37,170 nt of DNA from Bacteroidales bacterium. Its GTDB lineage: Bacteria; Bacteroidota; Bacteroidia; Bacteroidales; WCHB1-69. The position numbers were made by a program, and so were the translations under genes. The notes beneath the pieces are model-generated. The model made no database searches, was not told the DNA's origin, and was given only the letters and a program-made list of their open reading frames with translations. The DNA is taken from NCBI GenBank assembly GCA_017650305.1, contig JAGCFD010000045.1:1-37170 (forward strand). Direction: 5' to 3'. Each line of letters opens with the position of its first letter. Within the stretch, counting starts at the first letter, position 1. Of the stretch, positions 12,905 through 18,966 are shown piece by piece.

Positions 12905-13741
12905 ATGTTAAAGATCAATAAAATACTGTTTCTTATACTTCTTGTGCTGGGACCACTCTTCGTGTTGAACGCTCAAGAAGGAAAATGGTCGGCAAAAGGC
13001 GATGCGGCCTATCAGAAGGGGAATTATTCGAAAGCAATCTCTTTGTACAAGAAAGGTGTGAAAGCCGAAGAAGGTGCCTCCTGCTATGGACTGGGACTCT
13101 GCTACCTGGAAGGACATGGAACGTCCCAGGATCTCAATGAGGCTGCTTTCTACTTGTATCGCGGAGCGGAGCTCTCCAACCTGAAAGCCTCTGCCGAGAT
13201 GCTGGTCCGTCTTGCCGATAAGGGCAATGCCGATGCACAGATGCTCGCCGGACACTGCTATCAGGTGGGCTATGGACTGGAAGAAGACCTTTCGAAAGCG
13301 ATACAGTATTATCAGATGTCGCGAAAGTATAACCTGAAGTATCTGGTGGAAGCCCTGCAACTCACCATTGATGAGGAGCTGACGTCGGCTTCTTCTGCCT
13401 CGCAGTCTGGCTCTGATACTCCCGGTGATGAGATTTTCCGTTTCGCGACCCAAGCACCTGAATTTCCCGGTGGGGTTCAGGCGTTGGTGAACATGCTGGC
13501 TCAGAATGCTGTCTATCCGGAATATTGTCGAGCAAGAGAGATTAAGGGCACCGTACTGATTGAGTTTGTGGTGGAGGCTGACGGGCAGGTGAGCCATGTG
13601 AAGGTAAAGCTGTCTTGTTTCCCGTTGTTGGACAACGAGGCGTTGCGGGTAGTCAGCAAGCAGCCGCGGTGGGAGCCTGGAATCTTGGACGGGAAGCCGG
13701 TGAGGTGCTATTATGCTGTTCCTATGAGGTTTGCCATGTGA
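12905..13741 (+). CDS. Sel1-repeat protein with C-terminal TonB domain
   Basis: This 278-residue protein has a signal peptide (1-23, ending VLNAQ), a TPR/Sel1-like region (about 30-155; GLGLCYLEGHGTSQDLNEAAFYLYRGAEL and MLAGHCYQVGYGLEEDLSKAIQYYQMS are recognisable units), a Ser-rich linker (about 160-172) and a TonB C-terminal domain (about 182-278, with the conserved FPGGVQAL, IKGTVLIEFVVEADGQV and PRWEPGILDGKPV). Classical TonB proteins are anchored by an N-terminal helix and contact TonB-dependent receptors. Here the N-terminus looks like a cleavable signal instead. It stands alone, 154 bp after the efflux operon. Function is unknown. Confidence 0.85.
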   Translation: MLKINKILFLILLVLGPLFVLNAQEGKWSAKGDAAYQKGNYSKAISLYKKGVKAEEGASCYGLGLCYLEGHGTSQDLNEAAFYLYRGAELSNLKASAEMLVRLADKGNADAQMLAGHCYQVGYGLEEDLSKAIQYYQMSRKYNLKYLVEALQLTIDEELTSASSASQSGSDTPGDEIFRFATQAPEFPGGVQALVNMLAQNAVYPEYCRAREIKGTVLIEFVVEADGQVSHVKVKLSCFPLLDNEALRVVSKQPRWEPGILDGKPVRCYYAVPMRFAM

Positions 13742-13781: not shown

Positions 13782-14760
13782 CAATAGATACATGTTGACT
13801 GTTTAGGCCTGTTTTGAAGGCACGTCATAGTGGTCTGACAGTCTTGTATGTGATTACCTGTCCGATTCTCAATAGTATCAATTCGGCCCGATCCTCATTG
13901 AGGTAAGCTGCAGTTCTGTGTCGGAATAATGCTTCGTAGACGTACCTGTGAAATATTGCTGCTGATAAATAGTGGTATACGCCGAAAGTCATTCTTTTCA
14001 GCTGAATCCAGAAACCATTTTCAATATTCTTTTTGCCTTTTCTCCCATCGTGATTCCACCTTGGATCTTCTGTCTGAAACATCTCCTTTTCGCTCTCTGC
14101 AAGAGTTTGGTAACAAATGTACCGATCCTTGTGTATTCTACTTCCGGTTTTTATGAACTCATATAATCTGGGGTGTAGAAAGTTGGGTGGATTCGACCAC
14201 CTGACGCGAAAAGGATTTCCATTCAAGCTTGTTCTGGTTGCGATCTCGCTTCGAATGATGTCTTTAAAATCATCATCAGGATTCCTGAACAGAATTCTGA
14301 TTTTCTGAGCAATGAACCAGGCTGTTTTTTGGGTTACCTCTAGATCCTTAGCTAGTTGACAAGAAGATATCCCCTGTTTGCTATTACAAAGTAAATAAAT
14401 TCCCATAAACCATTTTATTAATGGGAGTTTTGTGTTTTGGAATATTGTGCCGACTAATACGGAAAATGTGTTCCGGCAATTGCTGCATGCATAACGTCCG
14501 TCCTTTTTCCGATAAATCTTCTTGCATCCGCAATATGGACATACTGGTTCGCCTTGCCATCGAATTTCGGCCAAATATTCTCTGCATTTTTTCTCACTAT
14601 TCAGATGTCGTAATAGTGAATGAATGGATTTGAACTTTGAGAAGTCAATTGTTTTCATATCTTTTGATTTTTAATAAAATGTTTTTCAAGTGCAAAAATA
14701 CAAATAATTCATTATAAATACAAGTGAATATTTATTTTTTCAGTCAAGATGTATCTATTG
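13782..14760 (-). mobile_element. IS1595-family insertion sequence
   Basis: A 979-bp element is bounded by 20-bp terminal inverted repeats with one mismatch: caatagatacatgttgactg at 13782-13801 and the complement of 14741-14760 (cagtcaagatgtatctattg). It holds a single transposase gene on the minus strand. The size fits the IS1595 family. The 8-bp flanks (ctttattc and tgatttta) do not match, so no target duplication remains. The element is A+T-richer than its neighbours. Confidence 0.85.
13825..14658 (-). CDS. IS1595-family transposase lacking the first catalytic segment
   Basis: This 277-residue transposase has an N-terminal zinc ribbon (Cys40, Cys43, Cys58, Cys61), the helix-turn-helix-like ISSCQLAKDLEVTQKTAWFIAQKIR segment (98-121) and the C-terminal half of the DDE/N domain: HKDRY at 176-180 (second Asp, D178) and the NIENGFW...LKR block at 211-222 (N211, K221). 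The usual VDETYIGGK block with the first catalytic Asp is missing. Only about 45 residues separate positions 125 and 172, where family members have roughly 100. The frame is open throughout, so this looks like an in-frame internal deletion and the enzyme is probably inactive. The gene starts about 80 bp inside the right inverted repeat. Confidence 0.82.
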   Translation of the reverse strand: MKTIDFSKFKSIHSLLRHLNSEKKCREYLAEIRWQGEPVCPYCGCKKIYRKKDGRYACSNCRNTFSVLVGTIFQNTKLPLIKWFMGIYLLCNSKQGISSCQLAKDLEVTQKTAWFIAQKIRILFRNPDDDFKDIIRSEIATRTSLNGNPFRVRWSNPPNFLHPRLYEFIKTGSRIHKDRYICYQTLAESEKEMFQTEDPRWNHDGRKGKKNIENGFWIQLKRMTFGVYHYLSAAIFHRYVYEALFRHRTAAYLNEDRAELILLRIGQVITYKTVRPL

Positions 14761-14921: not shown

Positions 14922-14942
14922 TTTGCGTAAAATTTACGCAAA
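14922..14942. promoter_or_regulatory. Upstream NrtR-type operator palindrome
   Basis: Perfect 10-bp arms TTTGCGTAAA and TTTACGCAAA flank one central A. It lies about 25 bp before the -7 element of the Nudix-regulator gene and is a strong candidate autoregulatory site. Confidence 0.7.
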
Positions 14943-14967: not shown

Positions 14968-14975
14968 TATTTTTG
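14968..14975 (+). promoter_or_regulatory. -7 promoter element of the Nudix/VWA operon
   Basis: TATTTTTG matches TAnnTTTG. It overlaps the second operator palindrome (14973-14991), so binding there would block initiation. Confidence 0.6.
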
Positions 14976-14991
14976 CGTCAAAATTACGCAA
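14973..14991. promoter_or_regulatory. Downstream NrtR-type operator palindrome
   Basis: TTGCGT and ACGCAA half-sites flank a 7-nt A+T-rich centre, a weaker version of the palindrome at 14922-14942. The two centres are 50 bp apart, close to five helical turns. Confidence 0.6.
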
Positions 14992-15009: not shown

Positions 15010-15933
15010 ATGAGTTATACTTACCAGTTCCCCCATCCAGCTGTCGCCACCGACTGTGTGCTTTTTGGCTTTGATGGTAAAGAGTTGAATGTCTTGTTGA
15101 TAGAGAGAGCTATGGATCCCTACAAGGACATGTGGGCCTTTCCGGGCGGCTTTATGCGGATGGATGAGACCGCGGAGGACTGTGCGCAACGTGAACTGCT
15201 CGAGGAGACAGGTCTCAACATCCAGTCGCTCAATCAGCTGGGCGCCTTCTCGGGCGTGCGCCGCGATCCGCGCGAACGGGTGGTCTCTATCGCCTTCTAT
15301 GCTCTGGTGAAGCCCTCAGAGGTGAGTGGGGGAGACGATGCCCGCCAAGCCCGCTGGTTTCCCATCGATGATGTTCCGCAACTGGCTTTCGATCATGATT
15401 TTATCCTCCGCAAGGCCATGAGCCAGCTCCGCAAGGACATCTATTTCGAGCCCATCGGCTTTGAACTGCTCAACAACGCTTTCACCATGTCAGAACTCCA
15501 ACGCCTTTACGAAGCCATCCTCGGAGTCCATTTCGACCGCCGCAACTTCGAGCGCAAGATGCTCCAGACTGGCATCCTCCAAACCGCGGCAGAGTCGGTG
15601 GATGACCTTCCCGCTTCACACTCCAGGGAACAGTTTAAAGATAACCGTTTCTATGGGTCACACCGGGAAATGAAAAAGATGGACATCAACGACTTGTTTG
15701 GTCCTAGTGAATCACCCTCCCAGATATTGCAGGACACTTCGGCACACATCCACTTCCAAACGCTCTCTACCGAACACTTGTCCATGACTGACGATCGTAA
15801 GATGGAAGCAGACGAGACCTCCCCGGAAGCCCTGCCAAAGCGAAAACCCGGGCGGAAAGGTCGGCTGTTTTCCTTTAACAAGGAGAAATATGATCGCTTC
15901 AAACACGATAATAATTTCAGATTCGAGTTCTAA
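15010..15933 (+). CDS. NrtR-family Nudix-domain transcriptional regulator
   Basis: This 307-residue protein has an N-terminal Nudix domain (about 8-140) with a complete Nudix box (Gly47 to Leu69, pattern GX5EX7REUXEEXGU). A winged-helix domain typical of NrtR/AraR regulators follows (about 150-205, FTMSELQRLYEAILGVHFDRRNFERKML), and a basic C-terminal strand (KRKPGRKGRLFSFNKEKYDRFK). NrtR proteins bind ADP-ribose or related ligands and control NAD or sugar metabolism; AraR of Bacteroides is a relative. Many regulators of this family have a degenerate Nudix box, so the intact one is notable. About 70 low-complexity residues (205-275) are inserted before the final strand. The GTG at 14965 is rejected as start because it lies in the promoter. 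Two operator palindromes precede the gene. Confidence 0.9.
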   Translation: MSYTYQFPHPAVATDCVLFGFDGKELNVLLIERAMDPYKDMWAFPGGFMRMDETAEDCAQRELLEETGLNIQSLNQLGAFSGVRRDPRERVVSIAFYALVKPSEVSGGDDARQARWFPIDDVPQLAFDHDFILRKAMSQLRKDIYFEPIGFELLNNAFTMSELQRLYEAILGVHFDRRNFERKMLQTGILQTAAESVDDLPASHSREQFKDNRFYGSHREMKKMDINDLFGPSESPSQILQDTSAHIHFQTLSTEHLSMTDDRKMEADETSPEALPKRKPGRKGRLFSFNKEKYDRFKHDNNFRFEF

Positions 15934-15964
15934 ACCTTATTTAATAACCATAAATATCATCGTT

Positions 15965-17131
15965 ATGTTATTCAAAAAAAACAAAATCCAAGACAAGGTG
16001 GAAGATTCTACAACCCAAGGCGGCAAAGGCTCTGAGGTCGGCGGCGCACCCCACGGCAAGACGAAAGTCTATAATCTGATCATTCTCGACAAGAGCGGCT
16101 CGATGTCGTCCATCGCAAAAGCCGCCATCTCTGGTTTCAACGAAACGGTCGGGGGCATCCGCTCGGCACAGAAACTCTATCACGAGACGCAAGAGCATTA
16201 TGTCTCCCTCTTTATGTTTTGCGACTGCGATAAGTCCTATATCTATGAGAATGTGCCGGTTGAGAATGTTCAAGACTTGACCTCCCGAATGTACAGGCCG
16301 TGTTGTTGTACTCCATTGTATGACGCTATGGGCATCTCGTTGAACAAGCTGCTCAAGCAGATACAGCACGAGGAGAACGCCACCGCTGTGGTGACAGTCA
16401 TTACCGATGGTTTGGAGAATGCTTCCAGAGAGTATTCTGGCAAAGCTATTCAAGCCTTGGTGGACAAACTTAAAGACGAAGAGGGCTGGAGTTTTGCCTA
16501 TATCGGCACTAACCAAGATGTGGAGGAGGTCTCCATGTCGCTGCATATTGAAAATCACCTCTTTTTTGAAGATGATGAGGCAGGGATGTCAAAAGCTTGG
16601 TCCGATGAAAAGAATGCCAGAATGAATATGTATTCCATGATAGCAGAAGATATGGATTGTAGTGCAAGCATGTCTTCCACTGAACGCAAACGCTTTCGCG
16701 CCAAGCGTAATCGGGAGGTTTCCTATTATCGCGAGCAAGAGGATTATACGGGTAGAGTCGCTTCCGATCGCATTGATTCCTTGCGTCGCAACGAGATTTT
16801 TGTCTTCGGTAGCAATCTGGCTGGGGCGCATGGCGGAGGTGCCGCCTATGTGGCCGTTAACAATTTCGGAGCCGTGATGGGACAGGGCGTCGGTCTGCAA
16901 GGTCAAAGCTACGCCATCCCGACCATGCAGGGCGGCGTGGAGACTATCAAGCCATACGTGGACGAGTTTATCCAGTTTGCCAAAGACCATCCCCAGCTGA
17001 CCTTCCTCGTGACCCGTATCGGCTGCGGCATCGCCGGTTTCACTGACCAAGAGATTGCCCCGCTGTTCGTGAAAGCTGTCGATGTCCCCAATATTCATCT
17101 GCCCCAAAGCTTCTGGAATGTCTTGGTATAA
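15965..17131 (+). CDS. VWA domain fused to a macro-like domain
   Basis: This 388-residue protein has an N-terminal von Willebrand factor A domain (about 34-200) with an intact metal site: DKSGS (D42, S44, S46), Thr116 in CTPLYDAMG and Asp148 in ITDGLENAS. A helical linker (205-270) leads to a C-terminal domain (277-384) beginning EIFVFGSNLAGAHGGGAA, with GQGVGLQGQSYAIPT and TFLVTRIGCGIAGF. This last domain resembles the phage-type A1S_2505 family and, by its motifs, macro (ADP-ribose-binding) domains. It lies 31 bp after the Nudix regulator and shares its promoter. There is no signal peptide, so it is cytoplasmic. A role in ADP-ribose or NAD-derived signalling is inference. I chose the ATG at 15965; the longer frame runs into the upstream gene. 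Confidence 0.85.
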   Translation: MLFKKNKIQDKVEDSTTQGGKGSEVGGAPHGKTKVYNLIILDKSGSMSSIAKAAISGFNETVGGIRSAQKLYHETQEHYVSLFMFCDCDKSYIYENVPVENVQDLTSRMYRPCCCTPLYDAMGISLNKLLKQIQHEENATAVVTVITDGLENASREYSGKAIQALVDKLKDEEGWSFAYIGTNQDVEEVSMSLHIENHLFFEDDEAGMSKAWSDEKNARMNMYSMIAEDMDCSASMSSTERKRFRAKRNREVSYYREQEDYTGRVASDRIDSLRRNEIFVFGSNLAGAHGGGAAYVAVNNFGAVMGQGVGLQGQSYAIPTMQGGVETIKPYVDEFIQFAKDHPQLTFLVTRIGCGIAGFTDQEIAPLFVKAVDVPNIHLPQSFWNVLV

Positions 17132-17265: not shown

Positions 17266-18966
17266 ATGAAAAAGATTCTGCTCACCCTCTTGCTCTCTGT
17301 AGCCGCATGGATTTCTTATGCCCAAGCACCCAATCACTTGCGCGTGCTGAACTTCGTGCCCGACGATTGTCACTCGGTCCAATTGTTCAATCTGGATACC
17401 ATGGCCCGCACTTGCGAGCTGAAAGCCATCCAGGACGACAAACTGCTATCTTTTATCAGTAAAGAAGATAAAACAACGTACAAGCTTCTCAAAACCTTGC
17501 TGAAAAGTTGGGTTAACAAGGATAACAAACTCGGTATCGACTTCACCGCCTCTGTCGCCACAGTCGGCAACCGCATCTTCCTGATTCCGCTGAATAACGA
17601 GAAGAATTTTGAGAAGAATCTTCAAAAACTGATCGGCTCCAAGGCTCATTTTAAAACGGTTAACGATGGGGCCGCCGGCACAATTCGCAAGGTGGAATCT
17701 GAGGAACTTGACGTATTCTGCACTCCCTCTGTGGCCTGTATCATGCTTGATATGGCCGAGTTGGAACAGCTCTTCCCCACGCCGCAGAACGGGGCAGATT
17801 TGTGGCAGAAGATGCAGAACTCCCATTTTCTGCAGACCGAACCGGGACAGATGATATTGTCTGGAGAGATCTCAGGTTACACCCTCTATAACGAATCCAA
17901 TCCGATGGTTCAAATATTGGGACACTATGCCACTGCCTTTGCCCAGATATCTCCGGATATGTTGAAAGACCTCAATGTGGAGATTTATTCCCGCGGACAA
18001 GTCACCCGCGACCGGATGACCAGTGTCAGCGAGATCCGCAATCTCTCCACGAAAACGCCAGACTTCTCCTGGTCCGAGGCCCGTCGCGAGCCTCAAGTAG
18101 TGGAGCAACTGCTGCCCTATTTCGGGGATAATATGTTCGCGATGATGGTCAGCACGATGTCGGGAATAAGCAAGATGGGAGAGATCCCGCCCGCTTTTTC
18201 AGAATACAAGTCGTTGCTGCCTCTCATGGACAAGCCCTTTGTGGCCGCCATCATTCCCGATGGGATGTACTATATGATAGCTACGATGATTGATGAGCCG
18301 GAGCAGTTGCCAACTATGCTGAACAACTATGTGGAGGCCCATAACCGCTATATCGATTCGCTGTATCAAGCCCAATCCGAAGCCCCTGCTCCGACGATTG
18401 ATCTGGAGAGCCTGGATGATGAAAATGATGTAGAGGTCTCTTTTGAAGAGATGATGTCCACCCTACAGCAGACCCCCGTGGATCCTGCGGTCAACAAGAA
18501 GTCAGTCATCTATCAACCGGAAGGCGATTTGAAAATCTATTACCTCTTGACCACCAAAAGCCAGATGAACTATGATACATACGAGCGAGAATTGGGGATG
18601 GACACGGCTTATCTGGTGGTGAAAGGCAACAAGCTTTTCTTTGCGCCTAAGAAACAGGTGGTGGAGATGGTGAATCATCCTACAGTAAAGGCACAGCCCG
18701 TCTCTCCGGATTTTCTGCAGCATGCCATTTATGTGCGTATGGATGTGCAAACCCTGATGAATAGCATTGCGGGCGGAAGTCAACTCAATATTACACTTCC
18801 GTTCGACAATATGACCATGTTTGTGGATGACAATTTCTTCACCACCAACATTGAGGCGGTGAAAGGTCTTAAACATGGTATCTTCTATGAGATGGTGAAG
18901 AGTCTCAAAGAATTGTCCGAGCGCTTCTCAAAACCGGTCTATAATAAGCGTTTGAAGGTGTTCTAA
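17266..18966 (+). CDS. Secreted DUF4836-like protein
   Basis: This 566-residue protein has a signal peptide (1-20, ending WISYAQ) and no lipobox. The mature part starts with a 'fVPDDCHSVQLFNLDTM' segment, followed by a helical stretch and LGIDFTASVATVGNRIFLIPL. This resembles the start of DUF4836 proteins of Bacteroidales (alternating strands with a GIDl..pV motif), though the match is weak. There is a low-complexity acidic linker near 380-400. The C-terminus has no recognisable T9SS domain. It is a single-gene unit with its own promoter, and its stop codon overlaps that of convergent prmC. The function is unknown. Confidence 0.65.
   Translation: MKKILLTLLLSVAAWISYAQAPNHLRVLNFVPDDCHSVQLFNLDTMARTCELKAIQDDKLLSFISKEDKTTYKLLKTLLKSWVNKDNKLGIDFTASVATVGNRIFLIPLNNEKNFEKNLQKLIGSKAHFKTVNDGAAGTIRKVESEELDVFCTPSVACIMLDMAELEQLFPTPQNGADLWQKMQNSHFLQTEPGQMILSGEISGYTLYNESNPMVQILGHYATAFAQISPDMLKDLNVEIYSRGQVTRDRMTSVSEIRNLSTKTPDFSWSEARREPQVVEQLLPYFGDNMFAMMVSTMSGISKMGEIPPAFSEYKSLLPLMDKPFVAAIIPDGMYYMIATMIDEPEQLPTMLNNYVEAHNRYIDSLYQAQSEAPAPTIDLESLDDENDVEVSFEEMMSTLQQTPVDPAVNKKSVIYQPEGDLKIYYLLTTKSQMNYDTYERELGMDTAYLVVKGNKLFFAPKKQVVEMVNHPTVKAQPVSPDFLQHAIYVRMDVQTLMNSIAGGSQLNITLPFDNMTMFVDDNFFTTNIEAVKGLKHGIFYEMVKSLKELSERFSKPVYNKRLKVF

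Follow-up and report, generated by a model that had tools for sequence, protein, structure and literature searches.

The window analyzed here (the whole stretch of 37,170 nucleotides, contig JAGCFD010000045.1 of a Bacteroidales bacterium) harbors two genes on the forward strand separated by a gap of 31 bp. The first gene (15010..15933) encodes a 307-aa transcriptional regulator of the NrtR/AraR type with a Nudix domain and a winged helix, as assigned from Pfam and PDB matches, and the second gene of the operon (15965..17131) encodes a 388-aa protein in which a VWA domain is fused to an A1S_2505 domain. The two-gene composition noted in the original prediction (a Nudix regulator and a VWA-macro protein) was confirmed. 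The host genome assembly is 2.09 Mb in size and 84.65% complete.

A TonB_C/Sel1 protein was identified by Pfam at 12905-13738, and the gene downstream of the pair (17266-18963) had no Pfam family match. Among the five window neighbors scanned with Pfam, no phage gene, no sugar-utilization gene, and no match to TerB, TerC, or TerD was recognized, the last of which sets the window VWA apart from the Ter stress system. An IS1595-type transposase-like ORF (13825-14658, reverse strand) gave a zinc ribbon and a partial DDE match in Pfam, covering just the latter portion of that profile (positions 70-151 of 153), and a close homologue was found at the same position in the closest relative. Because this ORF is partial and positionally matched in the closest relative, the suggested link to a mobile element was not supported, and a recent mobile insertion was rejected. 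No ADP-ribosylglycohydrolase (ARG) gene lies next to the two genes, and a search of the 84.65% complete window genome likewise gave none.

The Nudix-type regulator and its predicted operators

The regulator matched PF00293 (NUDIX), PF21906 (NrtR_WHD), and PF19368 (AraR_C), all above the Pfam cut-offs, with the Nudix domain at residues 11-131 (15040..15402, forward strand) and the winged-helix DNA-binding domain at residues 150-195 (15457..15594, forward strand; PF21906, E 4e-16). Its best PDB match was the arabinose regulator BtAraR (5bs6, E 4e-44), and SoNrtR (3gz5) was matched with an E of 4e-22; the N-terminal Nudix domain, winged helix, and palindromic operators are shared with both. Unlike NrtR and AraR, the window regulator has an additional basic C-terminal tail (15841..15930, forward strand), which was strongly conserved in an alignment of 10 sequences and lies outside the matched AraR and NrtR ranges. 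In PADLOC, the regulator matched PDC-S07 (E 5e-11), and four other proteins, including the VWA-macro protein and two ARG proteins, were unmatched.

In the alignment, in which positions were counted by hand from the printed output, Arg88 of the window regulator corresponded to SoNrtR Arg98 and BtAraR Gly89, and Arg33 corresponded to SoNrtR Arg41. According to the accessible part of PMC4666351, the SoNrtR arginines aligned with these two residues, Arg98 among them, contact ADP-ribose, and NrtR and AraR regulators carry an impaired Nudix signature. The window regulator keeps both arginines, and its Nudix box (G47-L69) fits GX5EX7REUXEEXGU. Of 59 regulators, that of the window among them, 51 showed this strict signature in full and all 59 retained the catalytic core, in contrast to the impaired sites of NrtR and AraR. 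Judging from the two arginines and the Nudix signature, an ADP-ribose-like ligand is more likely than a sugar, and since the signature and catalytic core are intact, the Nudix domain may be an active hydrolase.

Two 19-bp palindromes, 50 bp apart from start to start, were identified upstream of the regulator gene. Operator O1 (TTGCGTAAAATTTACGCAA, 14923..14941) was picked up as both an inverted and a direct repeat and is kept upstream of the regulators of relatives, and operator O2 (TTGCGTCAAAATTACGCAA, 14973..14991) overlaps a likely -7 promoter element, TAnnTTTG (14968..14975, forward strand), the Bacteroidetes -7 consensus. O1 and O2 were the sole exact operator matches across the 2.09 Mb genome (84.65% complete), which differs from NrtR and AraR in that the exact operators lie at the regulator's own promoter alone. 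With up to three mismatches, 19 genome hits were obtained, four of which represent the two known sites, compared with 16 for the reversed-pattern control; a wider operator-based regulon was therefore rejected.

The same operators were searched in 59 upstream regions, i.e., those of 57 of the 80 loci described below, the window, and a phage contig (L202). At least one operator with up to two mismatches was observed in 57 of the 59 regions (4.45 expected from shuffles) and at least two in 54 (0.35 expected), as counted with a pattern written after viewing these same loci and with shuffles that ignore relatedness. At this threshold, the operator was absent upstream of the regulators in L175 and L177. 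In regions with exactly two operators, the spacing was 50-53 bp or 116-118 bp, and the gene-proximal operator overlapped TAnnTTTG in all 57 operator-bearing regions of the 59 examined. Given this overlap with the -7 consensus, binding of the regulator to its predicted operators should block the promoter.

The best PDB match to BtAraR and the AraR_C match speak for an AraR/XylR-like sugar regulator that lies beside the VWA-macro gene by chance. This explanation is highly improbable: the residue equivalent to BtAraR Gly89 is an arginine as in the ADP-ribose-binding SoNrtR, the Nudix box impaired in AraR is intact, both exact operators are at the regulator's own promoter in the 84.65% complete genome, the five neighbors scanned include no recognized sugar-utilization gene, and the pairing of regulator and fusion is conserved. 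It was ruled against on the first three of these points.

The VWA-A1S_2505 fusion protein

The fusion protein consists of an N-terminus of low confidence (pLDDT < 50 for residues 1-28), the VWA domain, a helical linker, and the C-terminal A1S_2505 domain. The VWA domain (about residues 32-228; 16058..16648, forward strand) has both the fold and the MIDAS residues (D42, S44, S46, T116, and D148), as originally described. The A1S_2505 domain (residues 269-388; 16769..17128, forward strand) has a predicted macro fold of the TARG1/DarG type. The profile search proposed for the C-terminal domain placed it in the A1S_2505 family, with 148.4 bits against NF049995 (NCBIfam A1S_2505_Nterm; curated cut-off of 45), and the domain also matched phrog_2072. 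Pfam on the fused protein and phmmer of the A1S_2505 domain alone against the PDB were uninformative, and Foldseek gave nothing below an E of 0.001 (best match 0.011). The proposed macro fold is supported as a predicted fold. The window domain is a clear member of the phage non-structural A1S_2505 family; it differs from that family in being fused to VWA under a predicted Nudix repressor, and from TARG1, DarG, and SCO6735 in being shorter (120 aa) and fused to VWA.

In a weak alignment (E 0.06), the catalytic Lys84 and Asp125 of TARG1 corresponded to Met53 and Ala89 of the window domain. At position 53, lysine was present in 32 of 44 viral sequences and in none of the 20 others, and at position 89, alanine was present in 63 of 64 sequences. 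As both TARG1 residues are replaced, hydrolysis by the window macro domain is doubtful. The macro domain may then act solely as a reader or scaffold, binding ADP-ribosylated protein without cleavage, with the VWA domain recruiting or holding the target and removal taking place elsewhere. The residues at these two positions favor such a role, as does the joint occurrence of VWA-A1S_2505 and ARG-A1S_2505 proteins in three loci (L165, L167, and L180). Against it, His21, G85, and C86 were invariant in all 64 sequences, with His21 a candidate catalytic residue. Moreover, the available portion of PMC9411070 reports that the SCO6735 macro domain is active without the TARG1-type Lys/Asp and that SCO6735 and DarG function with other residue sets, and a pure reader in the window, which has no ARG gene, would be without a known eraser partner. 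We consider this reader-only role possible, at low probability.

Conservation of the gene pair and exchange of its parts

A scan of public genomes using an alignment of seven fusions as the query confirmed 99 loci, of which the 80 best were used. The loci were from related Bacteroidales, mostly with rumen- or gut-source titles, and several contigs appeared twice. Among the best 80 loci, 53 contained intact fusions. In 51 of these, the regulator preceded the fusion on the same strand at a distance of no more than 3 kb, with no recognized gene in between in 49 (an ARG-A1S_2505 gene was inserted in L167 and L180). The two intact fusions without an upstream regulator were L144, the contig of which begins there, and L170. 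Hence, the gene pair is conserved elsewhere; neither of the findings named beforehand as refuting the original prediction (no macro fold; genes not paired elsewhere) occurred. The regulator was also present in L123, where a single in-frame stop interrupts the VWA-macro linker of the fused gene (L123:1939-3075); relatives have intact copies.

The other 26 of the 80 loci had a VWA gene with no fusion seen. For 19 of them, the ORF ended inside the contig and adequate upstream sequence was available, after exclusion of L173, L179, and L199 (cut by the contig end) and of L183, L188, L193, and L197 (no upstream room); L123, with its interrupted fusion, was also left out of this comparison. The regulator was present in three of the 19 (L174, L175, and L178). 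The contrast in regulator presence between fused and unfused VWA genes was strong. Of these three loci, L174 had VWA and ARG with A1S_2505 not found, L175 had VWA and an ARG-A1S_2505 fusion, and L178 had neither A1S_2505 nor ARG in its 12.7 kb. In 40 loci with A1S_2505 but without VWA, a regulator-type Nudix domain was observed in three (L103, L104, and L105); in L104, A1S_2505 was fused to a Nudix domain that had no accompanying winged-helix match. Across 393 genomes of the order, 92 matched either or both domains, and seven matches, including that of the window itself, spanned both; in their 1.5-kb flanks, the regulator was upstream in four, downstream in two, and not seen in one. In one genome (G052, L067), regulator, VWA, and A1S_2505 were three separate ORFs.

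Three further arrangements were observed. VWA, TerB, and A1S_2505 were adjacent genes in L057:2416-4048, tying the VWA family to a Ter-type component; a VWA gene without A1S_2505 adjoined an ECF-sigma-like gene in L058:9167-10084; and two divergent loci carried a DUF1810 gene downstream of their fusion (L165:8598-9080 from Pfam and L170:5672-6094 from similarity).

ARG enzymes belong to a family known to take off ADP-ribose tags. Of 54 fusion loci, L123 among them, 31 had an ARG-like gene within 2.5 kb. For 55 fusions (the window and L202 included, L123 excluded), ARG was present in 31, absent in 17 with adequate sequence, and indeterminable in 7. These counts rest on resemblance to two seed sequences, and divergent ARG genes may have been missed. 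The downstream ARG gene started 18-258 bp after the macro domain of the fusion in 28 of 29 listed cases (1105 bp in L169), and five examples matched PF03747 (E 3e-32 to 2e-37). On a quick tree of the 55 fusions, which has some long branches, the presence or absence of ARG needed 10 changes, and at least six were forced by well-supported branches. A1S_2505 was elsewhere fused to or located beside ARG, Nudix, DSP-PTPase, and YAcAr-SLOG domains, in agreement with the predicted link to NAD/ADP-ribose biochemistry. Stand-alone A1S_2505 genes were near a small Nudix gene (132-143 aa) in L065:7110-8360, L064, L070, L072, and L081; in L065, the one of the five scanned with Pfam, the Nudix gene had no winged helix and a TSCPD-domain gene was alongside.

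The operon may instead perform metabolic housekeeping without taking part in any conflict. It would then sense and clear free ADP-ribose, O-acetyl-ADP-ribose, or ADP-ribose phosphate that arises during normal NAD turnover or RNA repair. The complete Nudix box (51 of 59 regulators) and catalytic core (59 of 59) and the five loci with A1S_2505 beside a small Nudix gene are in line with this, as are the statements, in the accessible parts of the sources, that several characterized NrtR regulators control NAD metabolism (PMC4666351) and that macro domains can process soluble ADP-ribose derivatives (PMC9503650). However, the exact operators were at the regulator's own promoter alone in the 84.65% complete genome, and therefore no NAD genes were seen in the regulon. 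The patchy occurrence (92 of 393 genomes matching either domain) and the ARG changes (at least six on well-supported branches) also make for a poor fit, and we regard housekeeping as unlikely.

Phage relatives, predicted counterparts, and probable function of the operon

A1S_2505 relatives were found in 305 of 50,697 phage records, with one hit annotated as N4 gp14-like and another as a Poa1p-family macro domain, and in at least 589 IMG/VR stretches (589 of 600 among the matches listed). The A1S_2505 ORF was shorter than 240 aa in 69 of 80 viral loci, and phrog_7371 and phrog_2072 are phage families. Ten long phage-side A1S_2505 ORFs were scanned, and an A1S_2505-DSP-PTPase fusion (L209), an A1S_2505-YAcAr-SLOG fusion (L254), and A1S_2505-DUF7666 fusions on four viral contigs (L221, L228, L235, and L269) were identified; the remaining four had no informative partner. 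Two IMG/VR scans with the fusion as the query yielded one fusion-bearing contig; one of these scans, with the fusion query alone, gave a single locus with A1S_2505 only. The regulator and a VWA-macro fusion were located at L284:400-2669 on a 58-kb viral contig, which also carries DnaB, single-strand-binding, portal, and terminase genes.

A phage-derived or phage-serving device, in which macro and VWA domains of phage origin act for the element against NAD/ADP-ribose-based host immunity, would account for the abundance of A1S_2505 relatives in phage records and IMG/VR, the two phage families, and the set on L284, which is about 4 kb from the DnaB helicase gene on a contig with portal and terminase genes. 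It agrees less well with the recurrence of the fusion in many Bacteroidales genome contigs, where the neighboring ORFs differ by locus, with the single fusion-carrying contig from the two IMG/VR scans, and with the lack of a recognized phage gene among the five window neighbors in Pfam, the other window ORFs having been inspected by eye. We consider such a device rather improbable.

The claim that no characterized system has this composition was weakened, as section 3.8 of PMC9503650 predicts, computationally, host systems of a like kind, in which a Nudix or WYL repressor is combined with a vWA chaperone and an ADP-ribosylglycohydrolase, Macro being an accessory, and proposes that these ARG-centered systems act against viral ADP-ribosylation. 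The accessible parts of other open PMC papers described no composition of this kind. A Nudix or WYL repressor was reported in more than 42% and a linked phosphatase in slightly more than 55% of the ARG-centered systems (PMC9503650). The groups mentioned in section 3.8 include actinobacteria, planctomycetes, and proteobacteria, and the main text of PMC9503650, in its accessible part, contains no word starting with Bacteroid. The ARG-centered systems and the window share a Nudix-sensor repressor (repression in the window being predicted), a vWA protein, and an ADP-ribose-processing domain, as well as a modular gain and loss of parts, with an ARG gene in many window relatives. In contrast to those systems, an ARG gene is missing from the window and no phosphatase was recognized alongside the pair, the effector consists of one VWA-A1S_2505 fusion, and predicted operators were mapped, of which section 3.8 describes none. 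The window composition is a variant of this predicted kind and does not form a category of its own.

Computation gave the gene pair, the predicted folds, the operators with their overlap of the promoter, and the linkage to ARG. Taking these together, we favor, at a probability of roughly 0.55, a self-repressed, ADP-ribose-induced operon that recognizes, and perhaps removes, macromolecular ADP-ribose, most likely as a guard against ADP-ribosylation by phages or toxins. The mechanism proposed follows the model of PMC9503650 section 3.8 for ARG-centered systems. The Nudix/winged-helix protein would occupy the tandem operators and shut the promoter, until ADP-ribose or a derivative, released by ADP-ribosylation of macromolecules or NAD breakdown, binds the Nudix domain and frees the DNA. 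The VWA domain would then grip the target protein through its MIDAS metal, and the macro domain would bind the ADP-ribose mark and remove it or present it for removal, which in many relatives would be performed by the ADP-ribosylglycohydrolase of the neighboring gene. Finally, cleavage of the inducer at the intact Nudix site may return the switch to its starting state. We infer the ligand, the order of events, the chaperone role, and the protective purpose. An anti-ADP-ribosylation role is plausible, since hydrolases of the PARG type can shield bacteria from a transferase toxin that targets RNA, as stated in the available part of PMC11833690. Against the favored operon stand the absence of ARG beside the pair and in the 84.65% complete genome, the replacement of the catalytic TARG1 residues by Met and Ala, the best Foldseek match of only E 0.011, the lack of a PADLOC match for the VWA-macro and two ARG proteins, the locus L178 with regulator and VWA in which neither A1S_2505 nor ARG was found, the presence of the set on a phage contig, and the upstream position of the regulator in just four of the seven both-domain matches from 393 genomes.

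The last step of this mechanism leads to a tentative reading, in which the repressor is a self-resetting enzyme that senses and destroys ADP-ribose and controls a one-protein VWA-macro module finding ADP-ribosylated targets. If true, this would represent a compact, ARG-optional anti-ADP-ribosylation class of gut Bacteroidales that draws on a macro family widespread in phages. The window version appeals for experiments because it lacks ARG, keeps its Nudix core intact, and has a changed macro active site, and the operon could be used to probe whether a transcription factor consumes its own inducer. Host systems undoing hostile ADP-ribosylation have been predicted and little tested, and this operon is a small, tractable case, in that it has just two genes, its candidate operators have been mapped, and its inducer is predicted. 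In addition, it would supply a fold and a biochemical theme for A1S_2505, a common phage family whose NCBI name says no more than non-structural.
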